Shown here piece by piece: positions 5,475 to 21,076 of a stretch of DNA of 56,710 nt. The stretch is from Ruminococcus sp. GTDB lineage: Bacteria > Bacillota > Clostridia > Oscillospirales > Ruminococcaceae. A model generated the notes under the pieces. It made no database searches. It was not told the DNA's origin and saw only the letters and a program-made list of their open reading frames with translations. The DNA is taken from NCBI GenBank assembly GCA_015066665.1, contig SVNX01000014.1, positions 1 to 56,710 on the forward strand, given 5' to 3'. The translations under genes and the position numbers were made by a program. Each line of letters begins with the position of its first letter. Position 1 is the stretch's first letter.

Positions 5475-5484
5475 GGCAGGCCAT

Positions 5485-6237
5485 ATGATCGATCAGTTTT
5501 CCAGAACGGCACTGTTTTTCGGTGAGGAGGGCATGCAGAAGCTGGCGTCGGCCAGAGTTGCGGTGTTTGGCATCGGCGGTGTCGGCGGTCATACTGCGGA
5601 GGCGCTTGTGCGCAGCGGTATCGGTGCACTTGACATTATCGATAACGATACGGTCAGCATTACCAATGTGAACCGCCAGCTCTTTGCCACACTTGAAACC
5701 GTCGGTCGATATAAGACCGAGGTTGCCTGTGAACGTCTTGCACAGCTCAATCCCGCTTGCCGCATCACGCCGCATACACTGTTTTATCTCCCCGAAACGG
5801 CCGATGAAATCGATCTGTCCCGATACGATTATATCGTCGATGCCATCGACACCATCTCCGGCAAGATCATGCTGGCAGAGCGTGCCGCTGCCTGCGGCGT
5901 GCCGCTCATCAGTTCCATGGGGGCAGGGAACAAGCTCGATCCCACAGCCTTCCGGGTGGCAGACATCTATCAGACATCGGTCTGTCCCCTTGCAAAGGTT
6001 ATGCGTCATGAGCTGAAAAAACGCGGCATCCGCAAGCTCAAGGTGGTCTATTCCGAAGAGCTGCCCATCAGTCCCGATCCTGAAACGCTGTCCCGCCTCA
6101 TGGCGGAGGAAAATCCGGATGGCGAAGTGAAGAAACGCATTCCGGCAAGCAATGCCTTTGTCCCGTCCGTGGTGGGGCTGATCATTGCCGGAGAAGTCAT
6201 CAAGGATCTGACCGACATTCGTGAACGAAAAGGATAA
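5485..6237 (+). CDS. tcdA: tRNA threonylcarbamoyladenosine dehydratase (TcdA/YgdL), ThiF/E1-like
   Basis: The 250-residue E1-like protein has the nucleotide-binding loop GIGGVGG (about residues 31-37), DNDTV and the NRQ segment. It also has the TcdA-specific stretch SSMGAGNKLDP followed by ADIYQTSVCPLAKVMR. TcdA uses ATP to cyclise t6A37 to ct6A in ANN-decoding tRNAs. The start ATG 5485 follows AAGGCAGG and lies 10 bases after the copA stop. It may be co-transcribed with the copper operon, but no functional link is evident. The second E1-like gene in the window (thiF at 37512) lacks these TcdA signatures. Confidence 0.9.
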   Translation: MIDQFSRTALFFGEEGMQKLASARVAVFGIGGVGGHTAEALVRSGIGALDIIDNDTVSITNVNRQLFATLETVGRYKTEVACERLAQLNPACRITPHTLFYLPETADEIDLSRYDYIVDAIDTISGKIMLAERAAACGVPLISSMGAGNKLDPTAFRVADIYQTSVCPLAKVMRHELKKRGIRKLKVVYSEELPISPDPETLSRLMAEENPDGEVKKRIPASNAFVPSVVGLIIAGEVIKDLTDIRERKG

Positions 6238-6240
6238 CAA

Positions 6241-6278
6241 AAAACAGCCGTACCCAATGGGTACGGCTGTTATGTTTT
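6241..6278. terminator. Bidirectional terminator between tcdA and the ferredoxin gene
   Basis: A 13-bp stem AACAGCCGTACCC / GGGTACGGCTGTT has A-runs on its left side and T-runs on its right, so it can end transcription from both converging genes. Confidence 0.85.
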
Positions 6279-6291
6279 GCTTTAAAAAAGC

Positions 6292-6462
6292 TTAGCCTGC
6301 CTGAGGAGCCTCAACAGGACATGCAGCTGCACATGCACCGCAATCCAGGCATGCATCAGCATCGATCTCGTACTTGCCATCGCCAGCGGAAATTGCGCTT
6401 ACAGGGCACTCAGCCTCACATGCACCGCAGCTGATGCAAGCATCAGAAATTGTATATGCCAT
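6292..6462 (-). CDS. Small 2[4Fe-4S] ferredoxin
   Basis: The minus strand encodes a 56-residue protein beginning MAYTISDACISCGAC. It has two classic CxxCxxCxxxCP cluster motifs (ACISCGACEAECP and ACLDCGACAAACP) and little else, the standard clostridial ferredoxin used as a low-potential electron carrier. The ATG at 6460-6462 is preceded by GGAGGTGT at good spacing. It is monocistronic, with its own promoter, and converges on tcdA. It is a real gene although shorter than usual ORF cut-offs. Confidence 0.95.
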   Translation of the reverse strand: MAYTISDACISCGACEAECPVSAISAGDGKYEIDADACLDCGACAAACPVEAPQAG

Positions 6463-6517
6463 ATCTCTTTACACCTCCGATAAGTAGTACCGAAGCGCGC
6501 TTGCACTTCATACTTCT

Positions 6518-6545
6518 ATTTTATCACATTTTCAAAAAAAATCAA
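6518..6545 (-). promoter_or_regulatory. Probable ferredoxin promoter
   Basis: On the minus strand TTGATT (6545-6540) and TAAAAT (6523-6518) are 16 bp apart, about 50 bp before the start codon. Confidence 0.5.
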
Positions 6546-6787
6546 GTCCTTTTCAGAAAAAAGCATGACTTTTTCAGAAAATTTTTTTCCAAATCTGGCA
6601 GTTTCAACAGAAACGTGCCAAATGGCGATTCCTGTAAAATGAAATATGCCCGAAAAAACGCCATTTTAAACAAAGAAAGATTTTGTTTGCAGATTTAAAT
6701 AATGCAAACATGTCGGAAAAATTATCAGAATTGTGCATACCTATGAATTCGTGACATATGTTTTTGTGTGAACTGTTGAAAAATCCC
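6546..6787. other. AT-rich divergent intergenic region
   Basis: About 240 bp lie between the ferredoxin promoter and the promoter of the large ABC operon. The stretch is A/T-rich with T- and A-runs and short open frames that lack ribosome-binding sites. I see no gene or recognisable RNA in it; binding sites for regulators of either promoter may be present. Confidence 0.4.
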
Positions 6788-6816
6788 TTGACAGAATCCA
6801 AAATTTCCTGTATAAT
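6788..6816 (+). promoter_or_regulatory. Sigma-A promoter of the solute-binding protein/DUF5696 operon
   Basis: A consensus TTGACA (6788-6793) and TATAAT (6811-6816) with 17-bp spacing. The first gene starts about 165 nt downstream of the predicted transcription start, so the mRNA has a long leader. A palindrome TTTGC-N6-GCAAA (6872-6887) lies in that leader and could be a LacI-type operator or a small hairpin. Confidence 0.8.
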
Positions 6817-6988
6817 ATATATGTATTTGTGCGCTCTGACAAGGGGTCATTCTGTGCAATGCTGTTCCAGCTTTGCGTTAAAGCAAATGGGACAGTTTGA
6901 ATTTTGCCTGTTTTCCTTTGTTTTAGAGGCATTGATGTGGATATTACGGCTTTCCGCAGGGCGGAAGGCGCAGAAAGGCGGAGATGAT

Positions 6989-9967
6989 TTGAAAGGCAGA
7001 AGATTGTCTGTGCGGCTGATGAGTCTGCTTCTTGCGGCACTTCTTTCTTCGCAGGCGGCGATGCTGTCGGCGTATGCTGACGAGGCACCTGTTGTGGATA
7101 CAGCGGTGCTGACCATGGCAGACGATGCATCGGTGCCGCTCTATGTGGAGCAGGAGACTTACAGCGACTATTATGATATGTATGCAGGGGAACACCGCCC
7201 CGATCAGGAGGTGCTTATCCCCGGTACGGATACACTCAGCATGAATTTTGCTGAAGGCGATGCGGTATCGACAGGCAGCTGCGGTGCCGAATATGGCCAG
7301 GAAAACAAGGATGATGTCCTGATCTGGAACGCAGCCGAGGGCAGCGTGTCCTATCAGCTCGATGTGCCGGAGACAGGTGTCTATTGTCTGGAGGCCTCCT
7401 ATCTTCCGATTCCCTCCAACATGGCCAACATTGAGTTCAGCATTCTGATCGACGGCAAGGTTCCCTATGATACGGCTTCCCGTGCGACCCTGAATAAGGT
7501 TTACGAAAACGAAGGTGAAATCGAAGTTGATTCCCGCGGCAATCAGGTGCGTCCGGCGCAGAAGCAGGTGGGCATGTGGATGAAGACCCCGCTGCGTGAT
7601 GTGGATGGTCTGTTCAATGAACCGCTGTTCTTCTATCTCGAAGAAGGCAGCCATGAGCTGACTCTTGATATTAAGAAGGGGTATTTTGCACTTGAATCCC
7701 TCAGATTCTTTAACCCGGATTCTCTCCCGAGCTATGCGGATTACAAAAACAGCGTATCCGCAGGGACAAGCGTCGAGGCAACGCCCTCCACACTGATCCG
7801 TATTGAGGGTGAGGCGGCTGCTTATAAGAGCGATTCCACACTCTATCCGACAACGGATAATTCCAGCTATCTGGCATCGCCTTCCAATCCCGCCAAGACG
7901 GTGTATAACACCATCGGTTCCGGCAACTGGACCAAAGCAATGCAGACCATCACCTGGACGATTCCCGCTTCGGAGCTGACAAGTGACGGCTGGTATAAGA
8001 TCGGTATGAAGGCACGTCAGGCCACCATGCGAGGCCTCTATTCCAACCGCCGCATTTATGTGGATGGCGAAGTACTCTGCAATGAGATGGATCAGGTCAA
8101 GTTCTACTATGATACGGACTGGCAGCTGGTTTCTCCGACCGATGCAAACGGCGAGGAACTGTACATCTATCTTGAGGGCGGTCAGGATCATACCATTACC
8201 ATGGAAGTCATGCCCGGTGAGATCGGCGAATCCATGCGTGTGCTGGATGCGGCTGTGCTCGACATCAATACATATTACAGAAAGATCCTGATGATCACCG
8301 GCCCTTCTCCCGACAAGTATACCGATTACTATGTGCATGAGAAGATTCCGGAGCTGCTCGATGAGTTCAAGCGTCTCTCCGCAGATCTCAAGCAGATCAA
8401 GAACGACATTGAGACCATGGCAGGCTCCGAGGGTTCGGAAGCCGCTTCCCTCGAAAGAATGTATCTCGTTCTGGACAACTGTGTCAAGGAACCGCTGAAG
8501 ATTCCGGATTACCAGTCCCAGATCAAGGACAATATCACAGCCCTGTCCGCATGGATGTATGACTACCGCGGACAGCCCCTGGAGCTGGACTACATTGAGA
8601 TCGCATCGGCAGACCGTGAATTCAGCTCCGTGAAGGAGAATGCCTTCAAGAGCTTCGGCTTCGGCTGCAAGCGTTTCTTCAGCTCCTTCTTTGAGGACTA
8701 CACCAACCTTTCCGATGAGACGGATGAGGAAGCCATCAACGTATGGGTTTCCCTCGGCCGTGATCAGGCACTGGTGGTCAAGTCCCTCGTGGATTCCGAA
8801 TTCTCCCCGAATCACGATGCCAACGTGTCCGTCAACCTTGTCGTGGGCGGCGTTGTGGAAGCAACACTTGCCGGCAAGGGCCCCGATGTGGCACTTTTCC
8901 TCGGCGGTGAATTCCCCGTTAACCTCGCTGCAAGAGGCCTGCTTGTGGATATGAAGCAATATCCCGATTATGATGAAGTGGCCTCCCGCTTCCAGCAGTA
9001 TGCAACCGTGCCCTATCAGTATGACGGCGGTACCTATGGCATGCCCCTGACACAGAGCTGGGCAATGATGTTCTACCGTAAGGACATCCTCACAGAGCTG
9101 GGCTTTGATGCACCGCCTGAGACATGGGACGATGTGATCGACATGCTGCCGGCACTCCAGAGAAACTATATGTACATGGGTCTGGTGCTGCCCGTTGTAT
9201 CCGGTACCAATGCCACCATCTCCGCGGCAACGGAATCCGGCCACACCTTTGCAACCTTCATGCTCCAGCGCGGCATGAACTACTACAATCCTGCACAGAC
9301 CGTGACGAACTTCGACAGCATCGAGGCCGTACAGGCATTCGAGCAGTGGACGGATCTGTACACCAAGTATGGCTTTGAACAGAGCTATGACGGCTTCAGC
9401 CGATTCAGAACCGGTGAGTATCCGCTTGTGATCTCCGACTATTCGTTCTTCAATCAGCTGACCGTGGCTTCTCCGGAAATCAAGGGCCTTTGGGGCTTCA
9501 CCCAGATCCCCGGCACAGTCCGTGAGGACGGCACAATTTCCCATGCGGTCAACTCCACCTCCTCCGGTGCGGTCATCTTTGACAAGTGCAAGGATAAGGA
9601 AGGTGCATGGGATTTCATCAAGTGGTTCACATCCACCGAAACACAGGTGGCATACGGTACCCAGATCGAAGGCCTTCTCGGTCAGCTGGGACGCTACACC
9701 ACAGCCAATACTGAGGCACTGCAGCAGCTCGCCTGGTCCAAGTCCGAACAGGCAACGCTTCTGGAAGCACAGAGTGAACTGGAAGAAATTCCGATTATCC
9801 CCGCTTCCTATGCCGTGACCCGCAACATCATGAACGCATTCCGTGAAACGGTCAACAATTCTGAGAATCCCCGTGATACACTGCTCTGGTATAACCGTGA
9901 CATCAACACCGAAATCACCAGAAAGCGTGAGAATCTGGGACTTCCCACTGACGAAGAATCCAAGTAA
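6989..9967 (+). CDS. Very large extracellular solute-binding protein with N-terminal jelly-roll-like modules
   Basis: I start it at TTG 6989, behind GGCGGAG; the frame is open further upstream but without a ribosome-binding site. The 992-residue protein has a Sec signal ending near AYA-DEA and no lipobox cysteine. Residues about 115-240 and 270-425 look like two carbohydrate-binding jelly-roll modules (inferred from beta-rich, aromatic, Gly-rich repeats such as EAAAYKS and IYLEGG). A helical linker follows (about 430-545). Residues about 580-940 are a family-1 (MalE-type) binding domain with NVWVSLGR, GPDVALFLGGE, GMPLTQSW and MMFYRKDIL. Usual binding proteins of this family are about 450 residues. 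It leads an operon with two permease pairs, so it probably captures a polysaccharide fragment or glycan; the ligand is unknown. Confidence 0.85.
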   Translation: MKGRRLSVRLMSLLLAALLSSQAAMLSAYADEAPVVDTAVLTMADDASVPLYVEQETYSDYYDMYAGEHRPDQEVLIPGTDTLSMNFAEGDAVSTGSCGAEYGQENKDDVLIWNAAEGSVSYQLDVPETGVYCLEASYLPIPSNMANIEFSILIDGKVPYDTASRATLNKVYENEGEIEVDSRGNQVRPAQKQVGMWMKTPLRDVDGLFNEPLFFYLEEGSHELTLDIKKGYFALESLRFFNPDSLPSYADYKNSVSAGTSVEATPSTLIRIEGEAAAYKSDSTLYPTTDNSSYLASPSNPAKTVYNTIGSGNWTKAMQTITWTIPASELTSDGWYKIGMKARQATMRGLYSNRRIYVDGEVLCNEMDQVKFYYDTDWQLVSPTDANGEELYIYLEGGQDHTITMEVMPGEIGESMRVLDAAVLDINTYYRKILMITGPSPDKYTDYYVHEKIPELLDEFKRLSADLKQIKNDIETMAGSEGSEAASLERMYLVLDNCVKEPLKIPDYQSQIKDNITALSAWMYDYRGQPLELDYIEIASADREFSSVKENAFKSFGFGCKRFFSSFFEDYTNLSDETDEEAINVWVSLGRDQALVVKSLVDSEFSPNHDANVSVNLVVGGVVEATLAGKGPDVALFLGGEFPVNLAARGLLVDMKQYPDYDEVASRFQQYATVPYQYDGGTYGMPLTQSWAMMFYRKDILTELGFDAPPETWDDVIDMLPALQRNYMYMGLVLPVVSGTNATISAATESGHTFATFMLQRGMNYYNPAQTVTNFDSIEAVQAFEQWTDLYTKYGFEQSYDGFSRFRTGEYPLVISDYSFFNQLTVASPEIKGLWGFTQIPGTVREDGTISHAVNSTSSGAVIFDKCKDKEGAWDFIKWFTSTETQVAYGTQIEGLLGQLGRYTTANTEALQQLAWSKSEQATLLEAQSELEEIPIIPASYAVTRNIMNAFRETVNNSENPRDTLLWYNRDINTEITRKRENLGLPTDEESK

Positions 9968-10007
9968 CGGCCGAGCGCCGATCAATTAAAATAAGGAGGG
10001 GTTTCAT

Positions 10008-10940
10008 TTGGATCCTGCTGAAATCGGCAAGCGCAGCAAGCAAGAAAACAGACGTCTGATCTGGCTGCAAATGAAACAGAATAAGGAATGCTACTTCATG
10101 ATGCTCCCGTTCATGCTGGTATTCCTGGTATTTACCATCATCCCCGTTGTGATGTCCCTGCCCATGGGCTTTACGGACTTTGACATGGTACAGCTTCCGA
10201 AGTTCGTCGGACTGTCCAATTTCACTACGCTGTTCCTGAATGACAGCATCTTCATTCAGTCCATCCGCGTGACGCTGGTATTCGCCATCTTCACCGGCCC
10301 CCTCAGCTATGTGCTCTGCTTCCTGCTGGCTTGGCTGATCAACGAACTGCATCCCAAGCTCAAGACCATCTTCACCCTGATCTTTTATGCGCCGTCCATG
10401 GCCAATGTCTATACTGTATGGCAGCTGATCTTCAGCGGTGACAACTATGGTTATCTCAACTCCGTCCTGCTGAATCTGGGCATCATCAATGCCCCCATTC
10501 AGTGGCTGACCGACAGCTCCTATGTTCTGGGCGTGACCATCGTTGTACAGCTCTGGCTGTCCCTCGGTGCAGGCTTCCTGTCCCTCCGTGCGGGCTTCCA
10601 GAACATCGACCGCTCCCAGTACGAGGCCGGTGCCATTGAGGGCATCAAGAACCGCTGGCAGGAACTGATCTACATTACCATTCCTTCCATGGGACCGCAG
10701 CTGATGTTTGCGGCAGTAATGCAGATCGTCAGCTCCTTCACAGCCGGTACCGTGGCACAGAGCCTGGTCGGCTTCCCCAGCACGGATTACAAGGCGCATA
10801 CCGTCATGACCCATGCCTATGACTACGGCTGGGTGCGTTATGAGATGGGTTATGCATCAGCCATCTGTCTGATTCTGTTCGTTGCCATGTTCATCGTGGA
10901 GAAACTCATCAGCAAAGTGCTGAGCAAATATATGGACTAA
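10008..10940 (+). CDS. ABC sugar-type permease, MalF/LplB-like (pair 1)
   Basis: The 310-residue protein has six predicted membrane segments and the cytoplasmic EAA loop (YEAGAIEGIKNRWQELIYIT, around residues 205-225) that docks with the ATPase. The start is TTG 10008, seven bases after AAGGAGGGG. It follows the binding-protein gene by 40 bp and precedes the second permease by 12 bp, so the two should form a heterodimeric channel. No ATP-binding subunit is encoded nearby. As with many clostridial and Bacillus carbohydrate importers, a shared MsmX-type ATPase elsewhere in the genome is likely (inference). Confidence 0.9.
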   Translation: MDPAEIGKRSKQENRRLIWLQMKQNKECYFMMLPFMLVFLVFTIIPVVMSLPMGFTDFDMVQLPKFVGLSNFTTLFLNDSIFIQSIRVTLVFAIFTGPLSYVLCFLLAWLINELHPKLKTIFTLIFYAPSMANVYTVWQLIFSGDNYGYLNSVLLNLGIINAPIQWLTDSSYVLGVTIVVQLWLSLGAGFLSLRAGFQNIDRSQYEAGAIEGIKNRWQELIYITIPSMGPQLMFAAVMQIVSSFTAGTVAQSLVGFPSTDYKAHTVMTHAYDYGWVRYEMGYASAICLILFVAMFIVEKLISKVLSKYMD

Positions 10941-10952
10941 GGAGGTGCAGGA

Positions 10953-11858
10953 ATGTCGAAAACCAAAACAAAAAAGAAGATTGCCGCTACAAACCCCGAT
11001 AAACTGAAGGCCTCCAATAAGCAGGCCGGCAAGAAGATCGGCGGTACGGTTGCCATCTTTGCCTTTCTGACGATCCTGGGCCTGTTTATGGCGCTGCCGA
11101 TTTACCTCGCATGCGTAATGTCCATCAAGCCCGTGCATGAGCTGTTCGTCTTCCCCCCGAAGCTCTATGTCATCGATCCCACACTCGATAACTTCCGGGA
11201 TATGTTCGCCACCCTTTCCGATATGTGGGTGCCCTTCTCCCGCTATGTATTCAACAGCGTATTCGTGACCGTCTGCGTAACCGTGGCACAGTGCGTGTTT
11301 GCCTCCATGGCAGCCTTTGTTCTGGCAAAGGGACGCTTCCCGGGCAACAAGCTGCTGAATAATATCATCGTGATCTCCCTGCTGTACCAGAGCAATGTTA
11401 TCTATATCATGCAGTACATCGTTATGGCACAGCTTGGTATGATCAATACCTACTGGGCACTGATCCTGCCCTCCGTTGCATCCCCCATGTGTCTCTTCCT
11501 GATGCGTCAGTCCATGAGCACCGTGCCCGATGCGATGATCGAGGCAGCCAAGGTGGATGGTGCCAACATCTTCACCATCTGCTGGCGGATCGTAATGCCC
11601 AACCAGAAGCCCGCACTGATGACAATGATCATCTTTGCCTTCCAGGCAGCCTGGAACATCCAGGGCGGTACACTGGTGTACAAGGAATCCCTGAAGACCC
11701 TGCCCACTGTGGTACAGCAGGCAGCCAGCTCCGGTCTTGCAAGAGCCGGCGTTGCGATGGCAGCAGCCGTGTTCATGCTGATTCCGCCGATCGTTGTATT
11801 CATGTTTGCACAGAAGAACGTCATCGAGACCATGGCGCATTCCGGTATCAAGGATTAA
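10953..11858 (+). CDS. ABC sugar-type permease, MalG/YtcP-like (pair 1)
   Basis: The 301-residue protein has a basic, lysine-rich cytoplasmic N terminus (residues 1-30), six membrane segments and an EAA loop reading IEAAKVDGANIFTICWRIVMP. It is typical of the second permease (MalG/LplC side) in CUT1-type importers. ATG 10953 follows AAGGAGGTG. It is the partner of the permease at 10008. Confidence 0.9.
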   Translation: MSKTKTKKKIAATNPDKLKASNKQAGKKIGGTVAIFAFLTILGLFMALPIYLACVMSIKPVHELFVFPPKLYVIDPTLDNFRDMFATLSDMWVPFSRYVFNSVFVTVCVTVAQCVFASMAAFVLAKGRFPGNKLLNNIIVISLLYQSNVIYIMQYIVMAQLGMINTYWALILPSVASPMCLFLMRQSMSTVPDAMIEAAKVDGANIFTICWRIVMPNQKPALMTMIIFAFQAAWNIQGGTLVYKESLKTLPTVVQQAASSGLARAGVAMAAAVFMLIPPIVVFMFAQKNVIETMAHSGIKD

Positions 11859-11873
11859 GAAAGGGTGGTAATT

Positions 11874-13379
11874 GTGCAGCAAAAATGGAAAAAACTTGTT
11901 GTAGCGTCCCTTGCCGGAATGATGACCGCCGTGTTCAGCATGAACCTTGCGGTATCCGCCGATGAGCATTATGACGTGTACAATTATGACCGCTGGAGCG
12001 AGGCCATTCCCTCGCAGGCCGGTTATCTGGCTGAACGTTCCGTATCCGGTGAGGATCTTGGTATCGGTGATTTTGCCGAGCCAAGTGACATCTTCCGAGA
12101 TGCACACGATCAGCTGCTGATCGTCGATACCAAGAACAACCGTATCGTCATTACCGACAGCAAGCTTGAAACAGTTGTAGGCGTACTCGATGAGTTCACC
12201 TATGAGGACGGTTCGACCACAACCCTCAAGGAACCCGAGGGTATCTATGTTTCACCTGAGACCGACACCATCTACATTGCCGACTACAATAATTCCCGTG
12301 TCCTGGTCTGCGACTATGAAGGCAATGTCTCTCTTGAGATCACAAAGCCCCAGTCCGAGCTGTTTGCACAGGAGCTGACCTTCCTGCCGCAGCGTGTAAT
12401 TGCAGACAAGGCCGGCAACATCTATGTGGTGCTCGGCAATATTACCACCGGTGCCGCTATGTTCACAAGTGACGGTGAATTCCAGGGCTACTACGGTGCC
12501 AATACCGTTGAGCAGACATCCACTGTAATTGCCAACTATTTCTGGAAGATGATTTCCACGGATGAGATGCGTTCGAAGGCATCCCGTACCGTACCTTCCG
12601 GTATCACAAGCTTCGATCTGGACGATGAGGGCTTCATCTACACCTGTACCCAGTCCACATCCCAGAAGACCGATACCATCAAGAAGCTGAACCCCGCCGG
12701 CAAGAACCTGTTTACAGGTCTCGAGACCACATGGGGCGATATTGAGTCGGTGTATGACACCAACACCAACAAGAACTACCAGTCCATGATCTGCGATATC
12801 GAAATTGCAGATGACGGCAACATCAACTGTCTGGATCTGACCTCCGGCCGTATCTTCCAGTATGATAAGGAAGGCAACCTGCTGTTTGTATTCGGCAGCT
12901 CTTCCGACCAGCTGGGCGGCTTTACCGAGGTGGCAGCCATCGAATCCATTGGCGATGAGATCATGGTTGTGGATACCCGCAAGAATACCATCACCGTATT
13001 CGTGGAAACGGATTTCGGCGATATCGTTCACAGAGCCACCAATCTCTATAATGATGGCTATTATGAGGAAGCACTGGAGCCCTGGTATGAAGTGCTGCAG
13101 TATGACGGCAACTACCGCCGTGCCTTCCTTGGTATTTCCGCAGCACTGCTGATTGAGGGCGATTATGAAGGCTCCATGAAGTATGCAAAGCTTGCGGATT
13201 CGCCCTATCGCTACAACAGAGCCTTTGAGGGCTGGCGTACCGAGTTCCTCAGTGACAATCTCAACACGATCGTGATCATTGTTGTGGTGGTCGTTCTGGT
13301 TGTGGGCGTGCTGGTGTTCCTTTGGAAACGACACAAGAAAAATGTGGCTTATGCTGCAACAGTAGGAAAGGAGGAATAG
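11874..13379 (+). CDS. Extracellular NHL-repeat protein with C-terminal membrane anchor
   Basis: The start is GTG 11874, behind AAAGGGTGG; GTG 11865 is too close to that site. The 501-residue protein begins with a Sec signal (cleavage near VSA-DEH). It then carries a beta-propeller region of NHL-type repeats (residues about 55-380; recurring patterns such as [26 protein letters not shown] and [14 protein letters not shown]), a TPR-like helical stretch (about 390-460, [13 protein letters not shown]) and one Val-rich transmembrane helix with a basic cytoplasmic tail (KRHKK). It is displayed outside the cell next to the permeases. A role as scaffold, or in receiving glycan for the importer, is conceivable but unproven. 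Confidence 0.85.
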
Positions 13380-13383
13380 CATT

Positions 13384-14013
13384 ATGATGGATCTGACTGA
13401 CCGTCAATGGGTCAAGCATGCGATTACGCATCCCTTTGAAGGCTTTGAGGATATGCGGTGGAAAAAAGCAGGATCGATCAAATACTCCATCATCATCATT
13501 CTGCTCTGGTTCGTCGCCTCCATTTTCTATAACAGACTCTACGGCTTCCAGTTCTATGTGGAAGCGGATAAGATGTTCAACATCATCCCCTACATCGTCC
13601 AGACTATTGTGCTGTTCCTGACATGGGTTGTCGGCAACTGGGCTGTATGTACGCTGCTCGATGGTGAGGGTACCATGCGCAACATCTTCATTTATAGTGC
13701 CTATGCCCTGATCCCTTATGTGGCCAGCATCTATATTGAGGTGTTCCTGTCCCATATTCTGATCCGTGATGAGTATATTTTCATCGAAGCCATTTCCTAT
13801 CTGGGACTCGGCTGGAGCGTGGTGCTGGTGTTCTCCGCCATCAAGTCGGTGCATCAGTACACATTCACCAAGACGATTTTTGCGATTCTTCTGACGATTG
13901 CGGCAATGCTGATCATACTGTTCCTTCTGGTACTGCTGCTTTCTCTGTTCCAGCAGGTGTATGTATTTGCATACTCCATCTATACAGAGCTGGCATATCG
14001 ACTGAAGGTATAA
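13384..14013 (+). CDS. YIP1-family integral membrane protein
   Basis: The 209-residue protein has a short cytoplasmic N terminus starting near [21 protein letters not shown], then five predicted membrane helices. The layout, with the pattern [10 protein letters not shown] before the first helix, resembles Yip1-domain proteins of Firmicutes. The function of bacterial YIP1 proteins is not established. ATG 13384 follows AAAGGAGG and lies four bases after the NHL gene, so the two are probably translationally coupled. Confidence 0.8.
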
Positions 14014-14029
14014 AGGAGGCAGTGAACGA

Positions 14030-16849
14030 ATGCAGATTGTAAAAATGAAACGTGTGCTGGCGTGTCTGCTGGCAGCAGTCCTGGCACTGCCTGTGACGGC
14101 ACTGCCCGTCAGCTCGGACAACGAGCAGGAGACAGTCGCAGATGCCGCAGAAGGCGAGACCACTGAAGAGGGAGACGCCGCTGAAGAAACCATCGAAATC
14201 GAGGAAGAACAGGAAGAGGTCGACATTGATGCCGACACCGTTCAGAAGTATATGACTTCCGTTGGTGCCAAGGATGGCTACGCCGTTTATCTTCGCAGCA
14301 AGGAGTATAAGGATGAGGTTGAGGCAGAATTCCTCGCCAAGGTTGGCAGTACCTATGCGGATGAAGATGAGGCCGAGGATGCGGCTGATGAGATCATCGA
14401 TCTTCTGAAGAAGGCTGAGATGGCCATCATCGAGGAAGCCTCCGGAAAGGTTGCCGCAGTTGCCGAGGAGCTGACCGATACTAAGGAAAGCGTCATCTAC
14501 CTCAGCGATGCCGGACGTTATCTGATTCATCTGAATGCAGATCAGACTTCCGTGCAGCAGATCCGCTTCCGTGTGTCCACTCTGGACAGTGAATTCCTGT
14601 TCCTGACCAAGGATAAGAAGACTCTGGAGCTGTACTCCCAGGATTATGAAGAGGTCTATGTGACCATGACGCTGGATGAAACAACATCCGAACACTGCAT
14701 CTACCGCAGCAGCGATCAGCTCTGGTGGGCGATGCTCAGCCCCAAGCAGGATCAGGCGTGGGCCTGCGTCCGCAAGGCCGCTGAAAACGACAATTTCACC
14801 ATGTATGTGGATGAATACACCGCCGTTATTGCACTGGAGAACAAGGCGAACGGCTATATCTGGTGGTCTTCTCCCCTGAATGCCAACCGTGATACCCGTG
14901 CAACCGCTACGCTCGTCAATGAGCTGCAGTCCTCCGTTGTGCTTTCCTACGGCGACACTGCTTCCCGCAGCGTGACCAATCAGCGTTCCCGCAATGCTGC
15001 CGAAATCAAGGTGAAGGACATCTCCGATGGTGTGGAAATCACCTACAAGTTCGATAAGAGCAGCATCAGCGTGCCCGTGCGTTACACGCTCGAGGATACT
15101 TATCTCGATGTAAGCCTTGACTGCTCGGCCATCAAGGAAGGCAAGTTCGAGGAAGGCAAGATTGCCACAAAGATCACAATGCTCGGTGCTTTTGGCGCCG
15201 GTGCATCCGATGAGGAAGGCTACTTCGTTCTTCCTGACGGCTGCGGCACACTTGTGAACTTCAATAATGGCAAGGAAACCACCAAGGCCTATTCCCAGCC
15301 CGTTTACGGCAGGGACATCACCGTGGTGCCGACTACGAAGCCCGCTGTGACCGAAAAGGTGCTCATGCCCGTTTATGGCATCGTCAAGGACGGCAACGCC
15401 ATGGCTGTGGTAATTGCAGAGGGTGACGGCAATGCCGATCTCAATGCAAGCGTCAGCGGCCAGTCCCTGAGCAGCTATAACATCGCAAACTTTTCTTTCC
15501 GCCTGCGCGGTAATGATAATGTTGCCATGCCCGGTGATGCCGGTACCCTGACGCTGTTCGAGGACGGCCCCATCAAAACCGAAAAGATCAGCATGCGTTA
15601 TTATCCCATCGCCAAGGAAGACGCTGATTATGTCGATGTGGCCGAGGCTTACCGCAGCTATCTCCTCGAGGACGGCGGCGTGAAGGCCAAGGCACCGGCC
15701 GACACTACAGAAATGTACCTTGATCTGTACGGCGGCACCATGAAGGCCCGCTCCGTGCTCGGTATTCCGGTAACAATGAAAACCTCCATGACGACCTTTG
15801 ACGAGGCAAAGGAAATTGTCGGCAACCTGAGTGACAGAGGCGTGGATGACATGGTTGTTGTCTACAACAACTGGACAAATGAAGGCATCTCCGGCAAGGT
15901 CGACAACAAGGCCAAGCCCTCGGGTACACTCGGCGGCAACGGCGACTTCAAGAAGCTCAAAAAGTTCCTGGAGGAGAAGAATTTCGATTTTTATCCCTCC
16001 GTCAACAACACGACATTCAAGTCCGGTAACGGCTACTTCACCTTTACCGACACCACCATCCGCATTACCGGTTCCTACTCCAGACAGATGACCTATAATC
16101 TGTCCTATGGTGTGCAGGATACTTCCATGGACACCCTCTCCCTGCTGTCGCCCGGAACCTTCACCAAGGTCTATGACAAGCTGGCATCCCGCTACAGCAA
16201 GAAGGGCATTCAGGGCGTGTCCCTGGGTGATATGACTTCTACACTCTATGGTGATTACGGCAAGCAGAATATGTCCCGTGACAACACCAAGGAAGTGCTG
16301 CAGGAATCCTATCAGTCCATTAACGATTCCGGTCTGTCTATTCTGGCCGATACCTGTGCAGCCTATGCGTTCCCCTATGTGGATCGTATCTCCGATGTGC
16401 CCCTGCAGTCGAGCGGCTTTGATGTATTCGATGAGGATATTCCGTTCTATCAGATCGTCATGCACGGTGTGATTCCGTATTCCGGTACGGCGATCAATGC
16501 CAGTGCCGACAGCACGGAGACTCTGCTGGATACCATCGCCACCGGCTGTAATCCCGCCTATGACATGATCTATGCCGAGGCAAGTGACCTGAAGGATACC
16601 GACCTTGATACGCTGTTCTACTCGCATTATGCCTTCTGGCAGGATGCCGCAGCAGAGAAATATCAGCTCGTGTCCGAGATTCTCTCCGGCGTGAGCGATC
16701 AGACCATCACAGATTACTCCCGCACTGGTGATACAGCTGTGACGGTTTATGCCGACGGTACAGAAATCCAGGTGGATTATGCAGCAGAAACCATTACCGT
16801 GAACGGCACGGTATACAGCCTTGATCAGGCGGAAAAGGAAGGGGAGTGA
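14030..16849 (+). CDS. Secreted DUF5696-type protein, possible glycosidase-like barrel
   Basis: The 939-residue protein has a signal peptide (residues 1-26), then a strongly acidic low-complexity stretch (about 27-75), a beta-rich middle part, and a C-terminal half (about 565-880) with alternating strands and helices. That half includes MKTSMTTFDEAKEIV, DDMVVVYNNWTNEG and FDFYPSVNNT, resembling a TIM-barrel glycoside hydrolase. I assign it to DUF5696 from its size, order of regions and neighbours; the catalytic role is inference. There is no lipobox and no C-terminal anchor, so it is either free or held by partners. ATG 14030 follows AAAGGAGG. It lies between the two permease pairs and may process or present the imported glycan. 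Confidence 0.75.
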   Translation: MQIVKMKRVLACLLAAVLALPVTALPVSSDNEQETVADAAEGETTEEGDAAEETIEIEEEQEEVDIDADTVQKYMTSVGAKDGYAVYLRSKEYKDEVEAEFLAKVGSTYADEDEAEDAADEIIDLLKKAEMAIIEEASGKVAAVAEELTDTKESVIYLSDAGRYLIHLNADQTSVQQIRFRVSTLDSEFLFLTKDKKTLELYSQDYEEVYVTMTLDETTSEHCIYRSSDQLWWAMLSPKQDQAWACVRKAAENDNFTMYVDEYTAVIALENKANGYIWWSSPLNANRDTRATATLVNELQSSVVLSYGDTASRSVTNQRSRNAAEIKVKDISDGVEITYKFDKSSISVPVRYTLEDTYLDVSLDCSAIKEGKFEEGKIATKITMLGAFGAGASDEEGYFVLPDGCGTLVNFNNGKETTKAYSQPVYGRDITVVPTTKPAVTEKVLMPVYGIVKDGNAMAVVIAEGDGNADLNASVSGQSLSSYNIANFSFRLRGNDNVAMPGDAGTLTLFEDGPIKTEKISMRYYPIAKEDADYVDVAEAYRSYLLEDGGVKAKAPADTTEMYLDLYGGTMKARSVLGIPVTMKTSMTTFDEAKEIVGNLSDRGVDDMVVVYNNWTNEGISGKVDNKAKPSGTLGGNGDFKKLKKFLEEKNFDFYPSVNNTTFKSGNGYFTFTDTTIRITGSYSRQMTYNLSYGVQDTSMDTLSLLSPGTFTKVYDKLASRYSKKGIQGVSLGDMTSTLYGDYGKQNMSRDNTKEVLQESYQSINDSGLSILADTCAAYAFPYVDRISDVPLQSSGFDVFDEDIPFYQIVMHGVIPYSGTAINASADSTETLLDTIATGCNPAYDMIYAEASDLKDTDLDTLFYSHYAFWQDAAAEKYQLVSEILSGVSDQTITDYSRTGDTAVTVYADGTEIQVDYAAETITVNGTVYSLDQAEKEGE

Positions 16850-16856
16850 GCATAGC

Positions 16857-17750
16857 ATGAAAATTCCATATGAAAAAAGAAAAGGCCTTTACGGCTATGG
16901 ATTCATTGCCATCTGGCTGATCGGCACACTGCTCTTCTTTGTGTATCCGCTGATTGAATCCCTCCGGTACTCCTTTATGGACGTCCGCCCTGAGGTCGGC
17001 GGCATGCAGGGTACCTGGATCGGCCTTGACAACTACAAGTATGTCTTCCTGGAGGATCAGAACTACAGCAAGTATCTGGTCAGTGTTCTGGGTGATACCC
17101 TGTGGAAAACACCGCTGATCATCATCTTCTCGCTGTTCATTGCGGTTATCCTGAACCAGAAGTTCAAGGGCAGAGCCTTTGCCAGAGCTGTTTTCTTCCT
17201 GCCGGTTATCATCGCCACAGGTCCTGTGTACAGCATCATCAACGGCAACATCTCCAGCTCCGGTGCCAGCAGTGCCGGTCAGTTCTCCACCATGTTCTCC
17301 ACCGACCTCATGGGCGAGCTGTTCCAGTTCATCGGCATCTATGGCCTGAGCGACAATATGCAGACCATGGTTGAGACCGTATCGAACAACATCTTCAGCA
17401 TCATCTGGAGTACAGGTATCCAGATCCTGATCTTCCTTGCGGCATTGCAGAATATTCCGCCCTCTGCAAAGGAAGCTGCCCAGATGGAAGGCGCAACGGC
17501 TTGGGAGTATTTCTGGAAGATCACCCTGCCGTATGTCAGCCCCATGATTCTGGCAAATCTTATCTTTACTGTCATTGACTCCTTTACTGCGCCTGATAAC
17601 CTGGTTATGGGTCGTGTACTGGATATGCAGAGAGACTGGCAGTATGGCCACGCCGCTGCGATGGCATGGGTTTACTTCGTCATCGTGCTGGCAGCAGTCG
17701 GTCTGATCACTGTGATCATGAACCGCTTCATCTACTACGAAGTTGATTAA
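16857..17750 (+). CDS. ABC sugar-type permease, MalF-like (pair 2)
   Basis: The 297-residue protein has six predicted membrane helices and the EAA loop AKEAAQMEGATAWEYFWKIT near residues 200-220. ATG 16857 lies seven bases after the DUF5696 stop, with GGGGAGTG as ribosome-binding site. It is not a close copy of the permease at 10008: this protein has an extended, Ser/Gly-rich extracytoplasmic loop (ISSSGASSAGQFSTM). It pairs with the next gene. No second solute-binding protein is encoded in the operon. Confidence 0.9.
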   Translation: MKIPYEKRKGLYGYGFIAIWLIGTLLFFVYPLIESLRYSFMDVRPEVGGMQGTWIGLDNYKYVFLEDQNYSKYLVSVLGDTLWKTPLIIIFSLFIAVILNQKFKGRAFARAVFFLPVIIATGPVYSIINGNISSSGASSAGQFSTMFSTDLMGELFQFIGIYGLSDNMQTMVETVSNNIFSIIWSTGIQILIFLAALQNIPPSAKEAAQMEGATAWEYFWKITLPYVSPMILANLIFTVIDSFTAPDNLVMGRVLDMQRDWQYGHAAAMAWVYFVIVLAAVGLITVIMNRFIYYEVD

Positions 17751-17766
17751 AAGGAGGGAAACGGCT

Positions 17767-18828
17767 ATGGCAAAAAAAGAAAAAAAGCCTGCTGAAGGCG
17801 AAAAAGTCATTGGCAACGGTCTCTCCAAAAGAGAAATCCGTAAGATCCATATGCAGAATATGAACAAGACGGAGATTGCATATCTGCGCCGTAAGGAAGC
17901 CATCGAAAAGGTATGGCCGATCATGCGATTCTTCATTCTGTTCGGTTTGTGCTTCATCATTCTCTATCCGCTCATCTATATGATCAGCTGTTCCTTCCGT
18001 GCACAGGCGGACATGAACGATCCCACAGTTATGTGGATTCCGCGTCATTTTACGCTGAAGATCCTGGAACAGACCATGACGGCGATGGATTACTGGAAGA
18101 CACTGGGCAATACGCTTCTGCTGAACATCGGCTGTTCTCTGGTGCAGGTTGTGACCTGTGCTGTGACCGGCTACGGCTTTGCCCGCTTCAAGTTTAAGTT
18201 CAAGAACCTGCTGTTTGGTCTGGTTATCATGATGATTCTGGTGCCCAATCAGATCATTGCCATTCCGCAGTACATGGAATTCCGTTATTTCTTCGGACTG
18301 CAGCCCCTGATTGAGGATCTGTTCGGTACAAAGGCCGGCAGCGTTTTCAATCTGATCGACAGCCCGCTGACCATGTACCTGCCGGCACTGACCGCCAACG
18401 GCATCCGCTCGGGTCTGATGATCTTCATCTTCCGTCAGTTCTTTAAAGGCTTGCCCAAGGAGCTGGAGGATGCTGCTTACCTCGACGGCTGCGGCCCGTT
18501 CAAGACCTTCATCAAGGTTATGGTTCCCAATGCTGCATCTTCCTTTCTGACCGTATTCCTGTTCTCCGTAGTTTGGTATTGGAACGATTACTATGTAAGC
18601 TCCACCTTCTTCACAGAGAATTCTACCATGGCGCTGATGCTGAAGAACCTCAGCTCCACGCTGAATATGGTGCTCTTCAACAGTGCTACGGTACAGGTAT
18701 CGCCCCGTGAACAGATCCTCTGGATGGAGGCCGGCTGTCTTCTGGCAGTCTTCCCGCTCCTCCTGATGTATGTCTGCCTGCAGAAATACTTCACCGAGGG
18801 TATCGAGCGTTCCGGTCTGGTTGGATAA
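17767..18828 (+). CDS. ABC sugar-type permease, MalG-like (pair 2)
   Basis: The 353-residue protein begins with about 55 charged cytoplasmic residues (KKEKKPAEGEKVIG and a KREIRKIHMQ helix), longer than usual for this family. Six membrane helices follow, with the EAA loop reading LEDAAYLDGCGPFKTFIKVM. ATG 17767 follows AAGGAGGG. It is the last gene of the operon and is followed at once by a terminator. Confidence 0.9.
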   Translation: MAKKEKKPAEGEKVIGNGLSKREIRKIHMQNMNKTEIAYLRRKEAIEKVWPIMRFFILFGLCFIILYPLIYMISCSFRAQADMNDPTVMWIPRHFTLKILEQTMTAMDYWKTLGNTLLLNIGCSLVQVVTCAVTGYGFARFKFKFKNLLFGLVIMMILVPNQIIAIPQYMEFRYFFGLQPLIEDLFGTKAGSVFNLIDSPLTMYLPALTANGIRSGLMIFIFRQFFKGLPKELEDAAYLDGCGPFKTFIKVMVPNAASSFLTVFLFSVVWYWNDYYVSSTFFTENSTMALMLKNLSSTLNMVLFNSATVQVSPREQILWMEAGCLLAVFPLLLMYVCLQKYFTEGIERSGLVG

Positions 18829-18837
18829 TTGAAAAAC

Positions 18838-18872
18838 AAAGCATCGTGTCCTTCGGGATACGATGCTTTTCT
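18838..18872 (+). terminator. Terminator of the ABC/DUF5696 operon
   Basis: Stem AAAGCATCGT / ACGATGCTTT with a TTCG-capped loop and a downstream TTTTCTTTG tract, starting 10 bases after the last permease stop. Confidence 0.85.
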
Positions 18873-18900
18873 TTGTCTTTCGGCATGAACGGATGTAAAA

Positions 18901-18930
18901 GAAAAACCACCCGCAAGCGGGTGGTTTTGA
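18901..18930 (-). terminator. Terminator of the SseB-like gene
   Basis: A 12-bp stem AAAACCACCCGC / GCGGGTGGTTTT; on the minus strand it is followed by TTTCTTTT, just past the stop of the minus-strand gene. It may work in both directions. Confidence 0.8.
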
Positions 18931-18940
18931 TATGTTTCTC

Positions 18941-19729
18941 TTATGCCTCGTAGAAGGGCTCTGCATCCTGTACAGCAGCCTCGCCGAGCTTGTTGTTTGC
19001 CGGAACAATAGCAAGCTCCATGCCGCGCAGGTGGGGCTTTGCAGATTCTGCCAGACCATCATACAGTGCCTTTGTTGCAACACCGTCATTCGGAACGTCA
19101 GCATCCACAACGAGCAGGAAGTTCGGTCTTTCCTTATCTTCACGCTTCATCACACGGAGGAATACCTTGCGTACCTCGGGCTTACCGGAGAGGTAAGCTC
19201 TCATTGCATCAAGCAGCTCTGTCGGCTCTTCCTTCAGGGAACCAAGCTGAATCTTGGTGCCGGGTGCCAGTGCTTCCGTATTGTTCACACGGAACAGTGT
19301 CTCGGTGGGGATCATGATGTTCTGACCGAAGGGATTCACAACCGCACCTGCAGCATCGGGATTGGGATTCTTCTGGAGAATCTGGCAAAGATCACGGAAT
19401 GTGATGGCAGCCATCTGTGCCTCGGTGTGCTTGTCCCACTTGCGGTATTCGTCGATGTCTGTGAACAGGGGGAAGTACTTCTTGCCCTCCTGATTGTTGA
19501 ACAGCAGGAAACGGATCTGGGGCTGTTCCTTCAACTCCACTGTACCGTCATCATTTGCTGCGGCCTGCTGTACCTTACTGATATTTGCAGGAACGAAGAA
19601 ACGAGCTGTCTTCAGTGTGTTGACAAAAGCAACCTCACTCTTCTGGCTGCGTTCCTTCTTCATTTCATTCATTGCTTCGACCAGTGCCGGATTTGTAATC
19701 GGCGGCTGGGTATTTTTCTGTTCTGCCAA
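18941..19729 (-). CDS. SseB-family protein
   Basis: I start it at TTG (19729-19727), behind GAGGTGAA; the frame is open 18 codons further but that part has no ribosome-binding site and lies in the promoter. The 262-residue soluble protein has an N-terminal SseB domain (residues about 12-130: NPALVEAMN, ARFFVPANI, YFPLFTDIDEYRKW, DLCQIL, VVNPFGQNIMIP). It ends in a SseB C-terminal-type domain (about 145-255: PTELLDAMRAYL, VFLRVMK, HLRGMELAIVP). SseB was named for enhanced serine sensitivity in E. coli. Its biochemical role is not known. It is monocistronic. Confidence 0.8.
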   Translation of the reverse strand: MAEQKNTQPPITNPALVEAMNEMKKERSQKSEVAFVNTLKTARFFVPANISKVQQAAANDDGTVELKEQPQIRFLLFNNQEGKKYFPLFTDIDEYRKWDKHTEAQMAAITFRDLCQILQKNPNPDAAGAVVNPFGQNIMIPTETLFRVNNTEALAPGTKIQLGSLKEEPTELLDAMRAYLSGKPEVRKVFLRVMKREDKERPNFLLVVDADVPNDGVATKALYDGLAESAKPHLRGMELAIVPANNKLGEAAVQDAEPFYEA

Positions 19730-19794
19730 AATATTCACCTCATTTAAACTTTTACAGCAGCGGTGCATCACCGCTCGTATCAACTGCTATAGAC

Positions 19795-19823
19795 ATTATA
19801 ACATAAAAAAATCATAAAGTCAA
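19795..19823 (-). promoter_or_regulatory. Promoter of the SseB-like gene
   Basis: On the minus strand TTGACT (19823-19818) and TATAAT (19800-19795) are 17 bp apart. Confidence 0.75.
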
Positions 19824-19885
19824 CCATATTTTTATAAAATTCCACGGGGAGAAGAATTTGGAGGGGGAGGGCCGAAAAAAATGAA

Positions 19886-19913
19886 GAAAGCGTGTTTTTG
19901 CAAACACGCTTTC
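19886..19913. terminator. Hairpin between the SseB-like gene and rpmB
   Basis: Stem GAAAGCGTGTTT / AAACACGCTTTC with a four-base loop, in the gap upstream of the SseB-like promoter. It may be a second terminator for rpmB, whose transcript runs away from it; its job is uncertain. Confidence 0.5.
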
Positions 19914-19937
19914 ACTCTTTGCTGCATCATTCCGCAT

Positions 19938-19985
19938 AAAAATGAAAAATCAGGAGCATAACCGGATAACCGGTTTCTCCTGATC
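19938..19985 (-). terminator. Terminator of rpmB
   Basis: TCAGGAG / CTCCTGA enclose an inner AACCGG / CCGGTT pair; on the minus strand the hairpin is followed by TTTTTCATTTTT, 27 bases past the rpmB stop. Confidence 0.75.
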
Positions 19986-20011
19986 GCTTTTCATTTCATT
20001 GTCATATGTCC

Positions 20012-20197
20012 TTACGCACGCTCAACCTTACCGGAACGCAGGCATCTGGAACATACATTGATGTGACAGGGAGCGCCCTTAACAATTGCCTTAACGCGCT
20101 GTACGTTGGGCTTCCATGTTCTGTTGGTCAGTCTATGGGAATGGGAAACCTTGTTACCGAATGTAACGCCCTTGCCGCATACTTCACACTTTGCCAT
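20012..20197 (-). CDS. rpmB: 50S ribosomal protein L28
   Basis: The 61-residue basic protein begins [10 protein letters not shown] and contains the L28 signature [13 protein letters not shown], with CxxC pairs at both ends (CEVC, CSRC), so it is the zinc-binding form. L28 is part of the large ribosomal subunit. The ribosome-binding site AAGGAGG precedes the ATG. It is a single-gene unit transcribed away from the site-2 protease gene. Confidence 0.97.
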
Positions 20198-20241
20198 CTG
20201 GGATACACCTCCTTAAACATGTAAAAAACACCTATGGACTA

Positions 20242-20270
20242 ATTATATCACGTTCCGAGAAAAAAAGCAA
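20242..20270 (-). promoter_or_regulatory. Promoter of rpmB
   Basis: On the minus strand TTGCTT (20270-20265), a 17-bp spacer and TATAAT (20247-20242). Confidence 0.75.
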
Positions 20271-20329
20271 GTCTTTTTTTCAAGTTTTTTAAAATTATTT
20301 TTTACTGGGCGTAATTGTACAAAATAGGC

Positions 20330-20358
20330 TTGCAAATAGTCCTGTTTTGTAGTATAAT
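20330..20358 (+). promoter_or_regulatory. Promoter of the site-2 protease/scpAB operon
   Basis: TTGCAA (20330-20335), a 17-bp spacer and TATAAT (20353-20358), divergent from the rpmB promoter. Confidence 0.75.
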
Positions 20359-20392
20359 AAGAAGTGTATATTTTTTATCCGGGAGTGATAGT

Positions 20393-21076
20393 ATGTCAGA
20401 TTTCTTTTCGACCACCACACTGCTTGAGATTTTTGTCAAGATCATGATGATTTTGCTGATTCTGCCGCTGCATGAATTTGCCCATGCCTGGACAGCGAAT
20501 AAGCTGGGGGATGACACCGCCAAATACATGGGGCGCATGACGGTCAATCCATTTGCTCATATCGATCCGATCGGTGCGCTGCTGCTGCTGTTCTGCGGCT
20601 TCGGCTGGGCAAAGCCCGTACCGGTTAATCCGCTTCGCTTCAAGAATTCCAGCCGCGGCATGATGCTCACAGCTCTGGCTGGCCCCGTATCCAATCTGCT
20701 TGCAGCCATTGTCGGCATGATCGCCTGGCAGCTGCTTGACGGTGGTGCCTATGTTATCGAAGAGGCTGGCAGCTACATGGTTGTGTCGAATACCATGGGC
20801 TATGCCATGTGGATGCTCCACTGCTTTATTGTGATCAATGTCAATCTGGCGCTGTTCAATCTGATTCCGGTGCCGCCTCTGGATGGTTCGCGCATTCTCA
20901 GCCATTTTCTGCCCCATGGTGCACAGGTGTGGCTTGCAAAGAATGAGCAGATCTGTCATCTTGTCGTGATGGCACTGATGGTGACCGGCGTGCTTGCAGT
21001 GCCGCTGCGTCTTCTCAATCAGGTAGTTATGTTTGTTCTGCATCTTCTTCTGGGCTGGATCCCTCCGGTACTGTAA
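20393..21076 (+). CDS. Site-2 protease family (M50) membrane metalloprotease
   Basis: The 227-residue multi-pass protein has the zinc motif HEFAH in its first helix and the second metal site in PPLDGSR near residue 160, as in the short Rip/YwhC-type M50 proteases. These cut membrane proteins within the bilayer; the substrate is unknown. I chose ATG 20393 behind GGGAGTG; the frame is open further upstream but covers the promoter. It heads the segregation operon: scpA starts four bases after its stop, the usual clostridial arrangement. Confidence 0.92.
   Translation: MSDFFSTTTLLEIFVKIMMILLILPLHEFAHAWTANKLGDDTAKYMGRMTVNPFAHIDPIGALLLLFCGFGWAKPVPVNPLRFKNSSRGMMLTALAGPVSNLLAAIVGMIAWQLLDGGAYVIEEAGSYMVVSNTMGYAMWMLHCFIVINVNLALFNLIPVPPLDGSRILSHFLPHGAQVWLAKNEQICHLVVMALMVTGVLAVPLRLLNQVVMFVLHLLLGWIPPVL

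Follow-up and report, generated by a model that had tools for sequence, protein, structure and literature searches.

The 56,710-nucleotide stretch of contig SVNX01000014.1 analyzed here (hereafter, the window) belongs to a Ruminococcus sp. genome (assembly GCA_015066665.1) and carries eight co-oriented genes at positions 6989-18828 of the forward strand. They encode, in order, a giant solute-binding protein, the two permeases of a first pair (P1F and P1G), an NHL-repeat protein, a Yip1-domain membrane protein (YIP1), a DUF5696 protein, and the two permeases of a second pair (P2F and P2G). Our analysis indicates that the operon is real, that its genes are inherited together, and that it represents a form of CUT1 import that has apparently not been described. 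In the reading that we consider rather probable, it encodes an importer of plant-derived oligosaccharides that consists of two cassettes, has no ATPase of its own and uses one from outside, and holds an NHL-YIP1-DUF5696 complex at its second channel.

Organization of the operon

A first-pass annotation of this DNA had described eight genes on one strand, separated by 4-40 bp, and the gene calls with refined starts agree with that description (intergenic gaps of ~4-40 bp). Three gene starts were refined from ribosome-binding sites, and the start of the first gene was set at the TTG codon at 6989. The giant binding protein (6989-9967; Pfam and predicted fold) then comprises ~992 residues, which corrects the earlier length of 1,069. 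According to profile matches, it is followed by the permeases of pair 1, P1F of MalF/UgpA type (10008-10940) and P1G of MalG/UgpE type (10953-11858). Next come the NHL-repeat protein (11865-13379), which has an N-terminal hydrophobic segment and a C-terminal membrane anchor, and YIP1 (13384-14013), which has five hydrophobic segments (Pfam and hydropathy for both). The DUF5696 protein (14030-16849) is apparently secreted and has a GH129-like fold, as judged by Pfam, hydropathy, a predicted model, and profile comparison. The permeases of pair 2, again assigned by profile matches, complete the operon: P2F of UgpA type (16858-17750) and P2G of MalG/GlcU type (17768-18828), each with an ATG start placed by its ribosome-binding site.

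The promoter and terminator that had been proposed to bound these genes can both be found as consensus matches on the forward strand. A sigma-70-type promoter-like site, TTGACA-N17-TATAAT, lies upstream (6788-6816; 12/12 consensus positions), and an intrinsic-terminator-like hairpin of 14 pairs lies downstream (18838-18869). The region as a whole contains 24 promoter-like and 18 terminator-like sites, compared with 15.4 and 12.3 expected from shuffles, respectively. No Rfam family reached its gathering score within positions 5000-20500.

Conservation and co-inheritance in relatives

The neighborhoods of DUF5696 genes were compared in a family set, i.e., 40 stretches fetched around DUF5696 genes chosen from profile matches in 197 family genomes, and in 80 named loci that overlap with it (L031 and L074 are, by their length, apparently one contig). 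Gene order and strand are conserved for all eight genes in 38/40 family loci, with the other two (L031 and L066) stopping at contig ends. Likewise, all eight are present in 66/80 named loci, and the remaining 14 are located on contigs that end inside the operon. The closest named matches belong to Oscillospiraceae and Ruminococcus metagenome-assembled genomes, many of them from ruminants.

Among the 197 family genomes, 81 have DUF5696 matches (76 above the cut-off, 62 with E below 1e-50), and 62 have the giant binding protein. Leaving out the 19 of these 81 genomes whose DUF5696 matches are weak (E above 1e-50), we found that 61 genomes contain both a long DUF5696 match and the giant binding protein, 134 contain neither, and 2 contain one of them. 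These exceptions are G034 (DUF5696 only; 70 percent complete) and G070 (binding protein only; 78 percent complete), and in both the match extends to the first bases of a contig. Ten of the weakly matching DUF5696-type proteins were fetched or compared, and NagBb-like proteins are among them. On the conserved order (38/40 and 66/80) and the co-inheritance (61/63), we rejected a chance gene cluster; the shared gene order is far beyond chance. The first-pass annotation had treated the NHL, YIP1, and DUF5696 genes as one system with the permeases, and this linkage is indeed what the neighborhoods of relatives display.

Some loci depart from the common arrangement. In L161 (3859-6718), P1G is split in two, with a 442-residue open reading frame on the opposite strand between the pieces. 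Of the 34 family loci that have 1 kb or more of upstream sequence, 13 carry LolD/MacB-type ATP-binding cassette (ABC) ATPases, identified by a hidden Markov model (HMM) search, immediately before the giant binding protein and in its orientation (e.g., L049:425-1417 and L050:6351-7983). A second such ATPase precedes the nearer one in 11 of those 13 loci, and in 12 of them the nearer one ends in a C-terminal stretch that looks AbrB/SpoVT-like by eye. Since these ATPases were found in 0/59 named and 0/26 phylum-wide loci, and not at the window, we regard them as a clade-specific neighbor and not as part of the system.

Permeases and the putative outside ATPase

BPD_transp_1 scored above its Pfam cut-off in four window proteins (5.7e-7 to 5.6e-18), which resemble the UgpA, UgpE, and MalG families, with every score below the equivalog cut-offs. 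Permeases of this type contact their ATPase through the EAA motif, and each of the four window permeases shows an EAA-type motif on visual inspection. A motif search detected it in 36/39 P1F, 36/39 P1G, 32/39 P2F, and 35/37 P2G proteins of the family, and in 30/30, 26/31, 16/40, and 36/40 of the distant ones, respectively.

As had been noted from the sequence, Pfam finds four permeases and one binding protein among the eight window proteins, and neither Pfam nor the gene list contains an ATPase; a dedicated ATPase inside the operon was therefore rejected. An HMM search of the window genome (2.03 Mb, 77 percent complete) returned one OB_MalK-type ATPase outside the operon, of 380 residues, on contig C39. 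ATPases of this type are present in 59/62 module-positive family genomes versus 97/135 of the others. These results agree with the earlier remark that MalF/MalG-type permeases often share an MsmX-type ATPase, here encoded elsewhere, and the protein on C39 may be the one that the operon uses. Elsewhere in the window genome, on contig C8 (L203:2354-8548), a CUT1-like permease pair adjoins MacB_PCD and HlyD-like proteins, an unusual mix of importer and exporter parts.

Giant binding protein

The giant binding protein matches SBP_bac_8 (Pfam, 1.3e-27) and is composed of a signal-like N-terminus, two predicted beta-sandwich regions, a helical segment, and a C-terminal maltose-binding-like domain. 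Its predicted model (pLDDT 85.9) aligns with known structures mostly through the C-terminal part, which resembles oligosaccharide-binding proteins. Among 27 giant binding proteins, Pfam matches were to Golvesin_C (10 proteins), CBM35 (6), and CBM6 (1), and the window protein has no match to any of the three. In addition, an N-terminal profile matched a part of cycloisomaltooligosaccharide glucanotransferase (E 1.8e-6) that we take to be CBM35. Judged through these relatives, the two beta-sandwich regions of the window protein appear to be CBM35-like.

Several genomes have more than one match to this protein (4 in G176, 6 in G187, at least 4 in G089, and 11 in G278, some of them fragments), and single internal stops interrupt some copies in G187, G331, G531, G001, and G122. 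Other binding-protein-like genes of the window genome are located on contigs C27 and C23; on C23, L197:6207-7634 has both an SBP_bac_8 (3e-9) and a dockerin type I (4.3e-5) match. On contig C11 (L198:5188-14161), four lipoprotein-like proteins of ~740 residues each are encoded in a row, the first with weak SBP_bac_1 and SGL matches.

Two cassettes and a proposed NHL-YIP1 scaffold

With the aim of following the operon beyond the family, we used a phylum-wide sample of 398 genomes, 39 of which have DUF5696 above the cut-off (the window genome and one family genome included). From 28 genomes, 40 stretches were analyzed, a few of which stop within 3 kb upstream; DUF5696 copy numbers in this sample are lower bounds, few candidates having been scored. 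The block NHL-YIP1-DUF5696-P2F-P2G (cassette B) is intact in 40/40 stretches. Relative to it, the giant binding protein and pair 1 (cassette A) lie upstream in 24 stretches and downstream in 6; in the other 10 the two cassettes are not adjacent. Twelve DUF5696-positive genomes that we chose all carry at least one copy of the giant binding protein.

The window NHL protein matches Pfam NHL (3.4e-11), and hydropathy places a hydrophobic segment at its N-terminus and an anchor at residues 468-486. The anchored propeller of the first-pass annotation is thus retained, and its TPR stretch is not, no TPR match being found by Pfam at E 0.1. The five helices proposed for YIP1 correspond to the five segments seen by hydropathy, in a protein that matches Yip1 (PF04893) at 2e-13, with 51 bits against a cut-off of 28.6. 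NHL and YIP1 form a single open reading frame in 23/40 phylum-wide, 4/38 family, and 3/76 named loci. Because the two are fused in many relatives, we propose that they may act together as a scaffold.

As an alternative, the two cassettes could be independent transporters placed in one operon, in which the giant protein serves pair 1, a conventional binding protein that is lost or encoded at another site serves pair 2, and NHL, YIP1, and DUF5696 are merely co-regulated. Rearrangement of the cassettes in 6/40 phylum-wide stretches and their separation in 10/40 would fit this explanation, as would the binding-protein-like genes on C27 and C23. So would a further conventional binding protein within 33/40 phylum-wide (and 5/40 family) stretches, a count for which six of the counted proteins served as HMM seeds. 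The single binding protein for two channels of the first-pass annotation accordingly describes the arrangement at the window, not that of most phylum-wide stretches. Nonetheless, the markers of both cassettes are co-inherited in 61/63 genomes, cassette B stays together in 40/40 stretches, and NHL-YIP1 fusion is frequent, and we consider two independent transporters unlikely.

Cassette B might also be a glycan sensor that signals to a regulator, with pair 2 not transporting at all. A signaling binding protein is reported for Ruminiclostridium cellulolyticum in the accessible part of PMC10384115. Against a sensor, the second MalF/MalG-type pair of the window is complete and carries EAA motifs as judged by eye, and no regulator is found among the eight genes; we give this idea very little credence.

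Glycan context of the flanking genes

The flanks of the operon were surveyed among the 25 commonest families, and the counts that follow refer to the matches listed. Phylum-wide flank proteins include SBP_bac_1 (19/109 and 16/97), GH26 (3/109 and 2/97), GH3 (2/109 and 4/97), alginate lyase (3/109), GH10 (3/97), GH43 (3/97), LacI (3/109 and 3/97), and AraC-type regulators (3/109). The 107 family flank proteins include GH95 (5), GH130 (2), GH26 (2), GH10 (1), and ABC_tran (19). Given these mixed families, the substrate probably varies between copies.

Among the matches listed, glycoside hydrolases make up a minority of the family flank proteins, and the window locus itself lies among genes that look housekeeping by eye. 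Both observations would suit an importer that salvages glycans of the bacterium's own wall or surface instead of dietary ones. The GH10, GH26, GH43, and GH130 enzymes and LacI regulators beside the operon in relatives point the other way, and own-glycan recovery seems to us quite improbable. The glycan context suggested by the first-pass annotation thus gains support from CBM35-like modules, glycoside hydrolases, LacI/AraC regulators, and extra binding proteins in relatives, and import of glycan fragments by the operon is likely on these sequence grounds.

DUF5696 has a predicted GH129 fold, apparently without conserved catalytic residues

The window protein matches DUF5696 (PF18952) with 569 bits (cut-off 25.6; 1.2e-170). 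Its hydropathy profile contains an N-terminal hydrophobic segment only, in keeping with the secretion that had been suggested. A single-sequence search for a solved relative returned nothing better than weak myosin matches, at E 0.3 or worse. For the predicted model of the window protein (mean pLDDT 82.5), the best Foldseek matches are GH129 enzymes, followed by GH101 and others. The matches to 5opq and 5wz* entries have E values of 1.1e-27 to 1.7e-23 and TMt of 0.67-0.74, with ZgGH129 at 1.1e-27 and NagBb at 8.6e-25. A profile of 26 DUF5696 sequences also matched GH129 enzymes, with whole-sequence E values of 1.9e-8 to 4.4e-5 and weak single stretches. Furthermore, hhalign of 81 DUF5696 against 11 GH129-type proteins returned probabilities of 99.8-100. 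In this comparison set, L205 and L215 exceed the PF11308 cut-off by whole profile and L211 does so slightly; the rest were drawn from weak DUF5696 matches. L210, a close relative of NagBb (E 8e-221), is itself above the Pfam DUF5696 cut-off and below that of PF11308. Since this NagBb-type protein misses PF11308 too, PF11308 is uninformative as a test of GH129 membership. By these comparisons, DUF5696 is homologous to GH129 and is predicted to share its fold. In L206-L214, NagBb-type proteins score better with Pfam DUF5696 than with Pfam Glyco_hydro_129, so genuine GH129 enzymes may be concealed under DUF5696 annotations.

Whether DUF5696 cleaves glycans is a separate matter. We take the aligned Glu and Asp positions to be the GH129 catalytic residues, with partial support from the D486N label of entry 8rzk. 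The acid/base Glu, present in 11/11 GH129-type proteins, aligns with window residue D774, where DUF5696 proteins have Glu in 18/81 and Asp in 25/81. The nucleophile Asp (11/11) falls opposite a four-column gap; D734, the acid closest to it, is Asp in 32/81. D734 and E774 occur together in 5/81 proteins, and Asp with any acid in 14/81. D742 and R750, on the other hand, are strongly conserved (71/81 and 78/81). The operon could thus combine an importer with an enzyme, DUF5696 being an active GH129-related glycosidase that trims the captured glycan and NHL and YIP1 being assembly factors. The shared fold and profile, the closeness of the two groups implied by NagBb-type proteins above the DUF5696 cut-off, and the presence of D734 and D774 in the window would be compatible with this, and D742 and R750 could serve another mechanism. 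The low conservation of the aligned residues among 81 proteins, compared with 11/11 for each in GH129, led us to reject a plain GH129 enzyme, and we find an importer with a trimming enzyme improbable. The trimming proposed in the first-pass annotation is accordingly not supported. That DUF5696 binds rather than cleaves is favored, not proven, by these alignments.

A model for two-channel glycan import

Taken together, these observations suggest the following mechanism. In cassette A, the giant binding protein would keep glycan near the surface through its CBM35-like modules, and its maltose-binding-like domain would pass oligosaccharides to permease pair 1. In cassette B, the outside-anchored NHL protein and the YIP1 membrane protein would act as a single scaffold, which together with the secreted GH129-fold DUF5696 protein may act at pair 2, most likely by binding and presenting glycan and not by cleaving it. 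Both permease pairs would depend for power on a MalK/MsmX-type ATPase from another locus. We regard the accessory NHL-YIP1-DUF5696 complex as a well-founded hypothesis. We suggest only tentatively that NHL-YIP1-DUF5696-P2F-P2G might be an ABC importer of a new class: a catalytically degenerate GH129-fold protein, held on a scaffold of NHL and YIP1, would substitute for or work alongside the usual binding protein of pair 2, and two channels would serve one glycan.

Several points weigh against this model. The simple EAA search detected the motif in only 16/40 distant P2F proteins. The window genome has two further CUT1-like permease pairs without an ATPase, so the MalK-type ATPase is not dedicated to the eight-gene operon, and at 77 percent completeness absences from this genome are weak. 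The operon's neighbors in the window, inspected by eye, include no obvious glycoside hydrolase. Likewise, the giant binding protein of the window has no Pfam CBM match, and Golvesin_C (10/27) is commoner than CBM35 (6/27) among its relatives. The window operon also lacks the conventional binding protein seen in 33/40 phylum-wide stretches, which leaves pair 2 there without an evident receptor. Finally, the window DUF5696 protein has acids at D774 and D734, making activity possible, and with the nucleophile opposite a gap its DUF5696 counterpart is uncertain.

If the model is correct, a widespread importer architecture of gut and rumen fiber degraders has been annotated piecemeal, its transport, NHL, YIP1, and DUF proteins being treated as unrelated. 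DUF5696, an apparent pseudo-glycosidase, and a bacterial YIP1 protein would each gain a function. The proposal can be tested directly through the NHL-YIP1 fusions and the division into two cassettes.

Comparison with known systems

We found no description of the eight-gene module among the results listed by a literature search confined to open papers. Going by gene neighbors, Athe_0085-87 may be a counterpart of the P2F-P2G-binding protein part of the module, which we offer only as a lead. In the available part of PMC8579813, Athe_0085-87 of Caldicellulosiruptor bescii is a putative oligosaccharide transporter with no substrate assigned. The accessible parts of PMC12838199 and PMC12710961 treat other transporters, and the module was not identifiable in the accessible part of an R. 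albus transcriptome (PMC4300822). A search of PMC11212667 by terms gave no match.

DUF5696 shares a predicted fold with the GH129 glycosidases NagBb and ZgGH129, and Pfam DUF5696 matches NagBb-type proteins; unlike in those enzymes, its catalytic residues are not conserved and its gene is fixed beside permeases. In Bacteroidetes, Sus-type systems couple surface glycan binding to import via a TonB-dependent porin. The general plan alone is alike, as the operon uses ABC import and not such a porin (SusC/SusD homologues were not searched for), and if our model holds it would be a Gram-positive counterpart of surface glycan-capture complexes. A further close parallel is provided by CUT1 importers with a shared MsmX/MsmK ATPase, such as Athe_0595-0598 of Anaerocellum bescii, described in the accessible part of PMC12838199. 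Like these, the operon combines a MalF/MalG pair and an SBP_bac-type binding protein in a locus without an ATPase, with a MalK-type ATPase elsewhere; unlike these, it has two permease pairs, a CBM35-like binding protein of ~990 residues, and the NHL, YIP1, and DUF5696 proteins.

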